This document shows, piece by piece, positions 30,709 through 45,484 of a stretch of DNA of 64,000 nt (positions are counted from its first letter, which is position 1; every line of letters starts with the position of its first letter). The notes beneath the pieces are model-generated. The model had not been told where the DNA came from, searched no databases, and saw only the letters and a program-made list of their open reading frames with translations. Position numbers and translations under genes: made by a program. Source of the stretch: Collinsella aerofaciens (lineage in GTDB: Bacteria; Actinomycetota; Coriobacteriia; Coriobacteriales; Coriobacteriaceae); the NCBI RefSeq assembly GCF_015558785.1, contig NZ_JADMOP010000005.1:62001-126000 (forward strand), read 5' to 3'.

Positions 30709-30762
30709 AGTCGTTGGGGACGTTCTTGTTTGACTAGTCGTTTAAGAACGTCCCCAACGACT
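30709..30762. repeat. Intergenic palindrome with 19-base arms
   Basis: The arms AGTCGTTGGGGACGTTCTT and AAGAACGTCCCCAACGACT are perfect complements around a 16-base loop. The GGGGAC in the arm recalls the short hairpin family. It lies between the RGG gene and pdxT with another palindrome 10 bases further on. Confidence 0.8.
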
Positions 30763-30771
30763 ACATAGCAT

Positions 30772-32492: not shown

Positions 32493-33929
32493 ATGCTTGA
32501 CTACAATTTGGAAAAACGCGGCGAAGCATCGCTCTATGAGTATGTTTACCAGCAAATTCGAGATGATATCGTAGCTGGACGCATTGTGGCGGGGGAGCAT
32601 TTGCCGTCTAAGCGCGCCTTTGCCAGTCATCTGGGAATCAGTGTTATTACCATCGAGAATGCATATAGCCAGTTACTCGCTGAGGGCTATATTTGCTCAA
32701 TACCACGTCGTGGCTACTACGCTTGCGAGCTTCCGGATGCACCGGTTTTGGCTTCGGCTGCGGAGGGCATCGACCGAGATGCCGTCTCTGTGGGCCCCAG
32801 CGTGCATGATGTCAACGGACAGGTCGAGCGATTCGATGCGCTTTCTCCTTCTGCTTTGGAGGCGGCGCGGCTTTGGCGAAGCGCGCTACGGGCGACGCTG
32901 GCATCCGAAGACGAGCGCGAAATCTTTTCGCCCGCACCGGCGCAGGGCACTGCTCGGCTGCGACGCGCAATTGCTCACCATCTGCACGGGACAAGGGGTA
33001 TGAATGTCGACCCCAACAACATCGTTATCGGTGCGGGCGCCCAGCTGCTCGATACCATGTTGGTTCAGTTGCTTGGCGCGGACAAGGTGTATGCGGTTGA
33101 GGATCCGGGCTATTTGCGTCTGACGCGTATCTATCAGGCTATGGGCTGCCAAGTTCGACATATCCCGTTGGATGATGAGGGCGTGGACTTGAGCACTCTG
33201 CAGAAAAGCGGGACCGATGTCCTTCACCTGATGCCGTCCCATCAGTATCCGACCGGCCTTGTGACGAGCATTGCGCGTCGCTATGCGCTTCTGAGCTGGG
33301 CCGCCGAGCGACCAGGTCGGTATCTCATCGAAGATGACTTTGATTGTGAGTTTCGCCTTGCTGGCAAGCCGATTCCTGCGCTCGCATCGATCGATGCCGC
33401 CCAGTCGGTTATTTACACCAACACGTTTTCGAAGAGCCTGTCATCGGCGTTGCGTCTAGCGTACATGGTGTTGCCCGATGAGCTAATGGAGCGGTTTAGG
33501 CGCAACCTTGGTTTTTACGCCTCGTCGGTTAGCTCTGTTGACCAGGTCGCTTTGGCTCGTTTGCTGGAATCGGGTGATTACGAGCGACATGTGAACCGCG
33601 TGCGCGTGCGCGCTCGCGAGGCGCGCGATGGCCTGGCGGCGCTTGTGCGGAAGGCGTTTCCGGCAGGGGAAGTCTCGATCGAGCATGCAGACGCGGGCCT
33701 TTACTGTATCGTGGTTGCGGAGCGTGGAACGGGCGGAAGCACTTTTGCACGGGCCCTCACGCGCTCGAGCATCCCTTTTATCGATATTGGTGACTGTTTT
33801 TGGTGTGCCGATGGCGCATCTGTCCCTGAAAACTCAACTCAAATTCTTGTTCAGTATGACGATCTGAGTCCAAAAGTGCTAACTAGCTTGGAATTGCAGC
33901 TAATGGGGGGCACTCTGCAACCTAAGTGA
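32493..33929 (+). CDS. pdxR: MocR/GntR-family regulator with aminotransferase domain, probable PdxR
   Basis: In this 478-residue protein residues about 10-75 form a GntR winged HTH (SLYEYVYQQIRDDIVAGRIV, then LPSKRAFASHLGISVITIEN). The rest is a fold-type I aminotransferase domain with IVIGAGAQLLDTMLVQLL, the VEDPGY motif, LIEDDFDCEF and the PLP lysine in NTFSKSLSSALRLAYMV. Divergent placement next to pdxST matches PdxR, which activates PLP synthesis when PLP is low. The ATG at 32493 follows AGGTGA; an ATG at 32463 is possible. Its last codons and TGA stop are supplied by the 119-bp palindromic element that starts at 33924. Confidence 0.9.
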   Translation: MLDYNLEKRGEASLYEYVYQQIRDDIVAGRIVAGEHLPSKRAFASHLGISVITIENAYSQLLAEGYICSIPRRGYYACELPDAPVLASAAEGIDRDAVSVGPSVHDVNGQVERFDALSPSALEAARLWRSALRATLASEDEREIFSPAPAQGTARLRRAIAHHLHGTRGMNVDPNNIVIGAGAQLLDTMLVQLLGADKVYAVEDPGYLRLTRIYQAMGCQVRHIPLDDEGVDLSTLQKSGTDVLHLMPSHQYPTGLVTSIARRYALLSWAAERPGRYLIEDDFDCEFRLAGKPIPALASIDAAQSVIYTNTFSKSLSSALRLAYMVLPDELMERFRRNLGFYASSVSSVDQVALARLLESGDYERHVNRVRVRAREARDGLAALVRKAFPAGEVSIEHADAGLYCIVVAERGTGGSTFARALTRSSIPFIDIGDCFWCADGASVPENSTQILVQYDDLSPKVLTSLELQLMGGTLQPK

Positions 33930-34042
33930 GTAGACTTTTAGCACTTTGGCGACCAGGCAGTTTTGTAACAAGCTATCTACCTGCGGTTTTGAAAAGCAGG
34001 ATGACCGGCCTGCTCGGGATGTTCAAAAAAGTCTACTCACTT
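33924..34042. repeat. 119-bp palindromic element, copy A
   Basis: It begins AAGTGAGTAGACTTTT and ends with the complement, AAAAGTCTACTCACTT, preceded by further A. The interior keeps ACTTTGGCGACCA, TTTTGTAACAAG and TACCTGCGGTTTT. Copies B (35343-35461) and C (45366-45484) have exactly the same length. It is flanked by TA on the left and by TG on the right, so a TA target duplication with one substitution is possible. It provides the stop codon of pdxR. Confidence 0.9.
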
Positions 34043-34224
34043 GCCGCGCAAAGCTCCTGCATGAGAAAAAATGGGGTTTTCAACAGGGCTTCGTCCAGCT
34101 CTCGGCAAGCTTTTGGCCAGTTGGGGAGTGCTGTTGAAAACTTGGCAGTCCGTTCGGCGCCATTTTTGGTGCGTTCGCGCCAATACGTGACTGACTGGGT
34201 TGAAATTCGTGTTTTCCTGTGCCT
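34043..34224. other. A+T-rich leader with a second inverted repeat
   Basis: No gene is supported here. GTTTTCAACAG (34076-34086) and CTGTTGAAAAC (34131-34141) are perfect complements 44 bases apart. The stretch leads into the PD-(D/E)XK-like gene, and its base composition is lower in G+C than that of neighbouring genes. Confidence 0.6.
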
Positions 34225-35352
34225 ATGAAGGATCTACTTTGTGACATATCGGCTTTTAGGTACTGGCGTTTGCCTCCTCAAGTCCGCGCTTTGTGTCCGC
34301 CGCTTCCACGGCCGGAAGAAGACCGGCAGCGATATGACCTTGCCCGTAACCCGACGGCTGCGGTTGTGCTCGGCTTTCCGTTGTATACATTGGTCCGGAC
34401 GAGAAACAAGCGGACTTGTCCTGCCAGTATCAGGCAGCGGCTGTTTCTTGGTGAGCTCCCCAGGGAATCCGTGCTGGAAACGGAGCATGGGTTTTTGGTT
34501 ACATCTCCTCTACTGACGACATTCATCATGTCGCGGCATCTGACGGATCTTCAGCTTCTTTTGGTATTGGCGGAGATGTGTGGCTTGTTTGCGGTGTGTG
34601 CCCTGCCGGCGGCACTTGAGGCGGAGCTTTCGCGTGCAATTGATTCGGGCGCGATTTCGACAACGTTCGGTTGGGTGCGCTGCCCGTCCGAGGACGGCAT
34701 CGCCTCAAATTTATGGCGTCGAGACGCTTTGGTTTTGGGCGGAGACCTTGACCGTTTTTGTTCAGATGTTTGCGGGATGCGTTACGGCAATAGATTTATG
34801 GCGGTATCGCAACTCGTTCCATTGGGTGCCGCGTCGCCTTTTGAGGTCGAGGCGTTTTTGTTGCTTGGACTGCCGCGAGCCCTGGGAGGCGAAGGGTTTT
34901 GCGGCATAGAGCTCAATGTCGAAGTGACGTTAAGCACAAGTGCTCGAGCGATTGTGGGAAAGTCCCGTGTATATATCGACCTACTTCTTTCTTCGCCGGA
35001 CGGTAGGCGACAGGTGGCCATTGAATGTCAGGGAAAGGCCTCGCACGGACGCGCAGGGGATGGCTTGCGTGACGCTGACCGCATGACGGCCCTTCAGGCC
35101 ATGGGCTACGATGTGCTTCTCCTTACACACAGACAGATATCGGATGAGGATAGATTCCGCGCGATCGTTAAGGCCGTATGCAGGATGCTCGATGCTGAAT
35201 ATCGTGATAAAAGCTCGGATGAGCAAAGGGCTGAGGCATTACTCCGGTCTGAACTATTCATTGACTGGACAAAATTGGGAGTAATCGACGGAAAGATGCC
35301 CGCTAGACACAAAATGGCTCGATCGTGGACGGCTGCGGTTCTAAGTGAGTAG
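34225..35352 (+). CDS. Hypothetical protein with C-terminal PD-(D/E)XK/DUF559-like nuclease motif
   Basis: This 375-residue protein belongs to no named family I recognise. The N-terminal part (LCDISAFRYWRLPPQVRALC onwards) and the middle (TEHGFLVTSPLLTTFIMSRH) resemble the AbiEi-like/DUF559 proteins common in Coriobacteria, with weak support. The C-terminal segment VYIDLLLSSPDGRRQVAIEC, then QGKASHGRAG, fits the D-(x)n-ExQ/K core of PD-(D/E)XK nucleases (ECQGK), and DADRMTALQAMGYDVLLLTH fits the following helix-strand of Vsr/DUF559 proteins. The ATG at 34225 (or GTG 34219) lacks a clear ribosome-binding site. G+C is lower than in its neighbours. It is bracketed by 119-bp elements, and its TAG stop lies within copy B. 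Confidence 0.6.
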   Translation: MKDLLCDISAFRYWRLPPQVRALCPPLPRPEEDRQRYDLARNPTAAVVLGFPLYTLVRTRNKRTCPASIRQRLFLGELPRESVLETEHGFLVTSPLLTTFIMSRHLTDLQLLLVLAEMCGLFAVCALPAALEAELSRAIDSGAISTTFGWVRCPSEDGIASNLWRRDALVLGGDLDRFCSDVCGMRYGNRFMAVSQLVPLGAASPFEVEAFLLLGLPRALGGEGFCGIELNVEVTLSTSARAIVGKSRVYIDLLLSSPDGRRQVAIECQGKASHGRAGDGLRDADRMTALQAMGYDVLLLTHRQISDEDRFRAIVKAVCRMLDAEYRDKSSDEQRAEALLRSELFIDWTKLGVIDGKMPARHKMARSWTAAVLSE

Positions 35353-35461
35353 ACTTTTGGCACTTTGGCGACCAAGCCGTTTTGCAACAAGTCATTTACC
35401 TGCGGCTTTATAAAGCAATATGGATGGCGTGCTCGGCAAGTTCCAAAAAGTCTACTCACTT
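35343..35461. repeat. 119-bp palindromic element, copy B
   Basis: It shares both termini with copies A and C, and its interior is close to A (ACTTTGGCGACCAAGCCG, TTTTGCAACAAG, TTTACCTGCGG). The two halves are imperfect complements over most of the length. CTAAG precedes and CTTAG follows, giving TA on both sides. It carries the stop codon of the PD-(D/E)XK-like gene. Confidence 0.9.
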
Positions 35462-35533
35462 AGTTTTTGACGAGAAGCCGATGCCGAAGGCGGTCCTATT
35501 TCAGGGCGTTAACAAGTTCATGAGGCACGAAAA

Positions 35534-40037: not shown

Positions 40038-40583
40038 ATGATGTGGTTTACCGCCGACTTGCACCTGGGCGATACGAATATCTTGCACGACATGGACCGG
40101 CCGTTTGGCTCGGTCGAGGAGATGAACCGCAAGGTCATCGATGCCATCAATGAGTGCGTGGCTGCGGACGACCGCCTCTATATTCTGGGTGACTTTACCT
40201 ATCGTTTGCCCCTGGCGGAGGCGGTGCGCCTGCGCGAGCGTATCGAATGCCAGAACGTGACGCTCATCCGCGGTAACCATGACGGCGACTGGGAAGATTC
40301 CGACGTACCGCGGATTTGGGAAGACGTGCGCGATTACCTGGAGATTGCTCCCGGCTATGCCAAGGGCCATCGTCTGGTTATGAGCCACTACCCCATGCTC
40401 AGCTGGAACGGCAAGGCACGTGGCGCCATTATGCTGCATGGGCATATCCACAGCAGAGGTGACCGCGCCAACGCACGCAACCGCGATCGCGAGCGCCCTA
40501 TCTTTCGCTACGATGTCGGTCTCGATGCCAACGAGTACAAGCCCGTAAGCCGCGATCAGATTCTTAGCTTCTTTGGGTTATAG
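40038..40583 (+). CDS. Calcineurin-like metallophosphoesterase
   Basis: The 181-residue protein has the dimetal motifs DLHLGDTN (D-x-H), LGDFTY (GD), LIRGNHDGDW (GNHD), MSHYPM (H) and LHGHIHS (GHxH). Proteins of this size act as nucleotide or nucleic-acid phosphodiesterases; the substrate is unknown. The ATG at 40038 is followed by another at 40041; GAGG lies about 11 bases upstream. It is followed directly by a strong hairpin repeat. Confidence 0.9.
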   Translation: MMWFTADLHLGDTNILHDMDRPFGSVEEMNRKVIDAINECVAADDRLYILGDFTYRLPLAEAVRLRERIECQNVTLIRGNHDGDWEDSDVPRIWEDVRDYLEIAPGYAKGHRLVMSHYPMLSWNGKARGAIMLHGHIHSRGDRANARNRDRERPIFRYDVGLDANEYKPVSRDQILSFFGL

Positions 40584-40636
40584 GGCGCCAGAGCCACCAC
40601 AAAGGGGACAGGCACCTTTGTGGTGGCTCTGGCGCC
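40584..40636. repeat. Short perfect hairpin, GGACAG-loop family (copy 5, longest stem)
   Basis: The 22-base arms (40584-40605 and 40615-40636) are perfect complements; the left one starts GGCGCCAGAGCCACC and ends ACAAAGG. The loop is ggacaggca. It begins at the base after the phosphoesterase stop. The inner stem is shared with the 2557-2589 hairpin. Confidence 0.9.
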
Positions 40637-40723
40637 GTTGCCATTATGGCGGCGGCGCCTTTTTTGTCCGCGCGGCGCGGTAGAGTGTAGCCGGTTGATA
40701 TTTGCGTCCATCGAGGAGCTGCT

Positions 40724-45365: not shown

Positions 45366-45484
45366 AAGTGAGTAGACTTTTTGCGATGTCGCGAGCACAT
45401 GGATTTTGCACAAGGGTTCTATCTGCGGTTTTAGTTTTCGTTATGCGGGTTGTGCTTGGCTATTGCAAAAAAGTCTACTCACTT
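45366..45484. repeat. 119-bp palindromic element, copy C
   Basis: It has the same 16-base ends as copies A and B and the same total length, but the interior has diverged (conserved parts TTTTGC-ACAAG and ATCTGCGGTTTT). CTAAG precedes and CTTAG follows. It lies between the Ski2-like helicase and trmB. The rest of the 45243-45551 gap holds nothing I can name. Confidence 0.9.

Follow-up and report, generated by a model that had tools for sequence, protein, structure and literature searches.

A Vsr-like nuclease gene of Collinsella aerofaciens and its palindromes: a candidate REPtron-like system of Coriobacteriia

The nuclease gene and its two palindromes

The 64,000-bp stretch of the Collinsella aerofaciens genome analysed here (contig NZ_JADMOP010000005.1, positions 62,001 to 126,000; hereafter, the window) contains, between pdxR and the gene for rubrerythrin, a gene for a 375-aa protein identified from its sequence as a PD-(D/E)XK (Vsr/MTES_1575-like) nuclease (34225-35352). 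The gene is framed by two palindromes, A (33924-34042) and B (35343-35461); the gene, its motifs and the palindromes are all given on the forward strand. Comparison with other Coriobacteriia establishes that genes of this family are associated with palindromes, that these palindromes combine private arms with a common core, and that they are dispersed.

Palindromes A and B are each 119 nt long, have identical orientation, share 84% identity and are imperfect, the outermost 16-18 bp of each being perfectly inverted. The central core is ACCTGCGGTTTT at the exact midpoint of A (33979-33990) and ACCTGCGGCTTT in B (35398-35409). Palindrome A provides the stop codon of pdxR and is separated by 182 bp from the ATG at 34225, which aligns with the start of the whole family, so that the start call is right; B starts 10 nt before the end of the nuclease gene and provides its stop codon. 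A preliminary description of the locus, made from the window alone, had placed two equally oriented 119-bp palindromes before the gene and across its stop codon, and this arrangement is borne out by our check of the coordinates and the identity. Between A and the gene, there is also an inverted repeat, GTTTTCAACAG / CTGTTGAAAAC (34076-34086 and 34131-34141; 66 bp overall), possibly an operator in the promoter region.

Both palindromes belong to an arm family, S1, with 16-bp ends of the form AAGTGAGTAGACTTTT...AAAAGTCTACTCACTT. There are six occurrences of the end motif AAGTGAGTAGACTTTT in the window, compared with 0.02 expected, and the third pair of ends delimits a full copy, palindrome C (45366-45484; core ATCTGCGGTTTT, 45421-45432), a dispersed S1 element without a family gene that the preliminary description had not connected with A and B. 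A window-wide scan for hairpins of 100-190 bp with a central core returned A, B and C and nothing else. Across the genome from which the window derives, S1 ends always pair at about 119 bp, and the 46 stretches recovered by a pattern scan of public genomes are all from Collinsella, nearly all 119 nt long (118-120) and located at few recurring sites. The window carries further near-perfect hairpins (40579-40713 and 30710-30768; CAGAGCCACCACAAAGGGGACAGGCACCTTTGTGGTGGCTCTG, plus one around GGGGACGTTC/GAACGTCCCC), and GGGGACAG hairpins resembling them are found again at the L274-L276 site; these hairpins, which do not have the ACCTGCGG core, probably represent a repeat family of their own.

The family was sampled by protein similarity alone, yielding 95 open reading frames from Collinsella and other Coriobacteriia, among which 84 are full-length and 71 of the latter are less than 60% identical to each other. 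In these 71 non-redundant members, Glu207 of the SPxE motif (codon at 34843-34845), Asp252 (34978-34980) and Glu267 are each kept in 70, and His274 and Arg286 in all 71. The catalytic ExQGK..H motif, from Glu267-Cys-Gln-Gly-Lys to His274, is encoded at 35023-35046; thus, the ECQGK-type motif recognized in the preliminary description is real and lies within an invariant active site. This conservation is, on the alignment, what an active nuclease of the Vsr-like PD-(D/E)XK kind would show. A Pfam scan of 12 family members returned a single domain, REase_MTES_1575 (PF18741; for the window protein, 27.4 bits versus a cut-off of 38.2, E = 3.6e-6), which defines a family originally described as a Vsr-type restriction endonuclease (PMC3710099). 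The window protein resembles the PF18741 and DUF559 Vsr-like nucleases in its C-terminal domain with the E..D..ExQG..H..R motif, but departs from them in its sub-cut-off score and in having an N-terminal region of its own (SAFRYHRxPPQ...SPxxTLLxLA); no report of a palindrome association for PF18741 members was found in the literature. Because the AlphaFold model, for which the input consisted of seven near-identical orthologues, was unusable, we can only infer the restriction-endonuclease fold. The gene is indeed A+T-richer than its neighbours, as stated previously (GC content of about 0.55 versus 0.58-0.60), but the difference is small and hence weak evidence of foreign origin.

Association of the nuclease family with gene-specific palindromes

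The nuclease family is represented in Coriobacteriia by up to 18 matches per genome. As a palindrome, we counted any hairpin with gapless outer arms scoring at least 14 within about 400 bp of the gene, a criterion that misses decayed elements. Such a palindrome accompanies 66 of the 84 full-length members, compared with 3 of 318 intervals further out and none of 189 shuffles, and the three control matches may themselves be elements of this kind. Among the non-redundant full-length members, 54 of 71 have a palindrome of 100-200 bp. When intervals 3' of unrelated genes in the same loci served as the control, restricted to unselected loci and leaving out those chosen for dispersed palindromes, the ratio was 46/84 for the family versus 1/65 (p = 5e-14). 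Grouped by family label, members from other genera of the same bacterial family (9/11) and from two further families of the order (6/10 and 9/11) show the association as well. Of the 11 members that have no N-terminal region, most are without a palindrome, and only 3 have one. Judged by these comparisons, the gene-palindrome association is solid. In the majority of family genes, only one side has a palindrome above the threshold, and where two copies are paired at one gene, their relative orientation can be direct as well as inverted. One family member (L100) has no palindrome inside the standard distance.

Divergent paralogues bear long palindromes of their own that are unrelated in sequence to each other. 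Nineteen genes have a palindrome on each side, and in every case the arms of the two elements match, with a similarity of 0.73-1.00 (null: mean 0.49, 99th percentile 0.64). Pairs of genes that are more than 60% identical usually share arms, whereas in pairs below 60% arm similarity averages 0.48-0.56, approximately the chance level, and exceeds 0.75 in only three pairs. At L209, in a different family of the order, the arms begin with GCTAAGTGAGCGGGC and are partly S1-like.

What most palindrome types have in common is TCTACCTGCGGTTTT, or a close variant of it, at the midpoint. With the search confined to the central part of each element and the shuffles scored likewise, 50% of 74 distinct elements match TCTACCTGCGGTTTT at 11 or more of the 15 positions, versus 0.65% of shuffles, and the centre of the core lies within 1 nt of the centre of the element in 40 of 48 cases. 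In many elements, the core is preceded by GAGTAGAC at a distance of about 25 nt and followed by GTCTACTC at about 20 nt. The orientation of the core relative to the gene is near random (31 plus, 38 minus), and mismatched arm pairs comprise 30 G-U and 22 A-C, without a clear excess of G-U. The last two observations suggest that the structure acts as DNA rather than as RNA cotranscribed with the gene.

These data also bear on the possibility that the palindrome is a gene for a structured non-coding RNA that partners the nuclease as a guide or antitoxin, in the manner of TnpB/omegaRNA or type III toxin-antitoxin systems, with the core as a loop read by the protein. A single hairpin close to most genes, a strand-asymmetric core at its tip and stable predicted folds (RNA-fold z-scores of -3.9 and -6.9 for A and B) would fit such an arrangement. 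However, a partner RNA is not readily reconciled with the near-random orientation of the core, the position of the element either upstream or downstream of the gene, the composition of the arm mismatches or the many copies that lie far from any family gene. Furthermore, no Rfam family matched the palindromes in the window, searched up to E = 5, or those at 18 other loci, searched at the gathering threshold. Covariation, checked in S1 alone, gave no information, as the outer stem does not vary. We therefore regard this explanation as unlikely.

Still less can be said for long hairpins that serve mainly as transcription terminators or stabilizers of mRNA 3' ends. Both A and B overlap a stop codon, and many elements follow a gene at a distance of 0-150 bp, in keeping with such a role, but no signature of an intrinsic terminator was found in either A or B, about 40% of the copies adjacent to a family gene lie upstream of it, and neither a sequence-conserved central core nor a near-invariant length is expected of terminators. 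This function as the main one appears hardly credible.

Dispersed copies and the sites that carry or lack them

We scanned the genome from which the window derives for the core ACCTGCGGTTTT, blind to genes and arms. The scan returned 16 exact sites, and 42 sites when one mismatch was allowed, as opposed to 12 for the reversed control. Twelve of the 16 exact cores are centred in a palindrome of 119-164 bp, and further palindromes contain a core with one mismatch. The palindromes fall into at least four arm families, namely, S1, which corresponds to the window gene, S2 (ATCTACTACGTTT), S3 (ATGCCGG) and S4 (TCCGGAAGTGCGGGG), and most copies do not adjoin a family gene. For instance, three of the five S1 copies have no family gene alongside. 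The S3 type belongs to a different family gene (L091; G000 C3:20222-21361), the palindrome type of L086 occurs at three places in genome G018, where one copy was counted as gene-less, and that of the og3 gene group at several additional places per aerofaciens-complex genome. In two regions (L118 in G006 C11 and L091/L285 in G000 C3), family genes with S3 palindromes are located in tRNA-rich stretches, with extra S2 and S3 palindromes nearby. At L028, L030, L033 and L050, two S1 palindromes lie about 3 kb apart with similar flanks (TTTTGGCTGC..GCTGGCT / AGTTTTG..), which suggests a duplicated segment or a repeated target.

Among 45 genomes of the genus, 18 have an orthologue of the window gene that is 92-100% identical, always between pdxR and rubrerythrin where both flanks are readable. 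Both palindromes are complete in 16 of the 18 genomes; in the other two, the A arm is decayed (L075) or the element is cut by a contig end (L073). In four relatives (L131, L133, L134 and L135), both the gene and the palindromes are absent, and pdxR directly abuts the rubrerythrin terminator. By hand comparison, the block missing from this empty site corresponds approximately to 33902-35525, that is, it reaches about 20 bp to the left of A and about 65 bp to the right of B. In G014, the same site is occupied by a gene that is 42% identical and has palindrome arms unrelated to those of A and B. Other S1 sites are polymorphic as well. The site of palindrome C (45366) is empty in G035, G033 and G013, and at a sixth S1 site, present in other strains, a clean empty junction, CATCGGCTA^ACCTGCC, can be compared with an insert of about 0.37 kb that has the palindrome inside. 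Because the inserts at the pdxR-rubrerythrin site and at the sixth S1 site extend past the palindromes, the latter are not the exact ends of what moves; at neither of these two sites is a target-site duplication evident at the palindrome ends. At L264 (G032), the insert at the sixth site contains a second core within a small palindrome, TAATAAACGTTTTACCTGCGGTTTTTATTA, located about 110-140 nt upstream of the S1 palindrome, which may be a decayed or minimal element.

The empty sites speak directly to the interpretation given in the preliminary description, namely, that A and B are the ends of a composite mobile unit with the nuclease as cargo, or that recombination between A and B deletes the gene. 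Part of it stands: at the pdxR-rubrerythrin site, the unit is shared or missing as a whole, and several family genes are framed by palindromes that match each other. The single 119-bp copy predicted to stay behind after loss of the gene was found in none of the genomes compared, and end modules that bound the insert exactly, as in a composite transposon, were not found at this site, where the insert exceeds the A-to-B segment. Moreover, most family genes have a palindrome above the threshold on one side only, and pairs can be direct or inverted. Nor does 'cargo' describe the gene well, because throughout the class the palindromes are the cognate partners of this nuclease family, which makes the gene likelier to be the enzyme of the system than an arbitrary passenger. 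Composite transposition and deletion between A and B were rejected on the empty sites; the interpretation is largely contradicted, and we give it very little weight.

An IS110-like insertion sequence (IS) interrupts one of the palindromes in some strains. In G019, the palindrome orthologous to the one at 45366 is split inside the core, between CTACCTGC and GGTTTAG, by an IS110-like element, and G012 and G004 share the right-hand junction, for a total of three strains. The C-terminal reading frame of the element resembles IS110 transposases (Transposase_20, 20.9 bits; cut-off 21.3). From this comparison, the core looks like a preferred target of the element; insertion of IS110 elements into repetitive extragenic palindromic (REP) sequences is known (PMC1525189). 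The insertion occupies positions 3896-5317 of L174 in G019, with counterparts at L157 (G012) and L159 (G004), and is followed in frame by an XRE-type helix-turn-helix segment.

The dispersed palindromes of 100-165 bp resemble miniature inverted-repeat transposable elements (MITEs) and REPINs, so they might be ordinary elements of these kinds moved by an unrelated transposase, such as a REP-associated tyrosine transposase (RAYT), with nuclease genes merely as frequent neighbours. Proteins with the Y1 domain (PF01797) are indeed encoded in seven of the eight genomes tested, but the eighth, G018, has palindromes and family genes without any PF01797 match, and the arms follow the individual nuclease gene rather than the genome. 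Neither a parental IS with the same ends in the own genome nor a target-site duplication at empty versus filled sites, as would characterize MITEs, was found. REP-type 5' GTAG/CGTC tags and inverted pairs were not found either; GAGTAGAC/GTCTACTC sits inside many palindromes, not at the 5' side. RAYT-driven ordinary REPs were rejected on G018 and arm specificity, and we consider any such explanation highly improbable.

Finally, the nuclease could be part of a conflict system, for defence or addiction. In that case, its targets would be invading or unprotected DNA, and the palindromes would serve it as sensors, decoys or self-marks instead of being mobile DNA. Vsr nucleases of the MTES_1575 type are known from proteins of conflict systems (PMC3710099), and the many diverse paralogues per genome with their gene-specific arms would be compatible with such a role. 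On the other hand, the nuclease protein has no match in PADLOC (nor in NCBIfam or PDB), the sole PHROGs match is marginal and of unknown function, a search of viral contigs recovered no relatives of the family, and the dispersed gene-less copies have no obvious role in such a system. Involvement in conflict thus seems improbable, to about the same degree as a partner RNA.

A candidate nuclease-hairpin system

In layout, the gene and its palindromes are closest to the REPIN-RAYT arrangement, where one enzyme gene lies beside its own palindromes, gene-less copies are found elsewhere and several such pairs coexist in a genome (PMC2817692, PMC3116915). Both feature a single enzyme gene with cognate palindromes, gene-less copies, several enzyme-palindrome types per genome and hairpins targeted by IS110 elements. 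Yet the system described here is not a member of that group. Its enzyme is a Vsr-like PD-(D/E)XK nuclease instead of an HUH tyrosine enzyme, the HUH/Y1 domain (PF01797) being absent from the 12 members scanned; in place of the 20-40-bp, GTAG-tagged REPs, there is one palindrome of 100-200 bp, which is longer by a factor of three to five and has a common core at its centre; about five copies are found per type, compared with tens to hundreds for REPs; and, unlike in REPINs, flanking copies occur in either relative orientation. As intergenic, dispersed, non-coding, imperfect palindromes of 100-200 bp, the elements are also reminiscent of MITEs, ERIC, Correia and RUP, but differ from these in that gene-specific arms tie them to a nuclease family and in that conservation is central, not only terminal. 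Homing endonucleases of the PD-(D/E)XK or EDxHD type (for example, I-Bth0305I) likewise combine a Vsr-like nuclease fold with a selfish-DNA setting; the genes studied here, however, lie between or beside intact target-like palindromes and not in a split target, an intron or an intein.

Because the layout is closest to REPIN-RAYT without being a member of it, we propose a cognate nuclease-hairpin system, that is, a REPtron/REPIN-like system in which a Vsr-type PD-(D/E)XK nuclease replaces the HUH tyrosine enzyme, and assign this reading a probability of roughly 0.6. Binding, cutting and spreading by the nuclease are what we infer from the sequences. The nuclease would recognize its own palindrome, as an extruded or single-stranded hairpin, via the arms and cut at or near the common core at the hairpin tip, so that the arms would confer specificity and the core would be the common processing site. 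Repair of the cut would then copy or insert palindromes elsewhere, making the gene-less palindromes non-autonomous elements. The genes themselves would by now be mostly stationary and vertically inherited, similar to those of RAYTs.

Several observations weigh against this proposal. The Pfam score for PF18741 remains under its cut-off and the AlphaFold model of the fold is of very low confidence (pLDDT of 35.8); about a quarter of the full-length members are palindrome-free by the gapless criterion; and the window gene appears unmoved, all orthologues with readable flanks being located at one site. At two sites, the boundaries of the insert lie 20-150 bp outside the palindromes, and neither transposition nor an excision product nor a target-site duplication was seen in the sequences compared. 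In addition, S1 palindromes persist in G002, G003, G006 and G033-G035, which have no orthologue of 92-100% identity, indicating that the gene is not needed for S1 upkeep on this time scale.

A wider reading, to which we lean more tentatively and with somewhat less than even confidence, is that Coriobacteriia harbour a new class of mobile or self-propagating DNA, in which Vsr-type PD-(D/E)XK nucleases would each read a private long hairpin by its arms, cleave it at a universal apical core and spread it as a non-autonomous element. Such a REPtron would have an origin independent of HUH enzymes, and many specificities would coexist in each Coriobacteriia genome. The nuclease-palindrome family is apparently undescribed so far: nothing on Coriobacteriia palindromes with nuclease genes was found in the open-licence literature, and a description in a subscription journal or a preprint is possible. 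To our knowledge, RAYTs are the only enzyme family well known as tied to dispersed extragenic palindromes in bacteria. If the proposal is correct, a second, unrelated nuclease family has gene-specific hairpins, and the palindrome-tied lifestyle would have arisen more than once. The many natural enzyme-hairpin pairs would lend themselves to the study of how a nuclease reads DNA secondary structure, and the combination of a constant core with variable arms makes recognition directly testable by swapping. A function would thereby be assigned to a large set of uncharacterised proteins of common gut bacteria.

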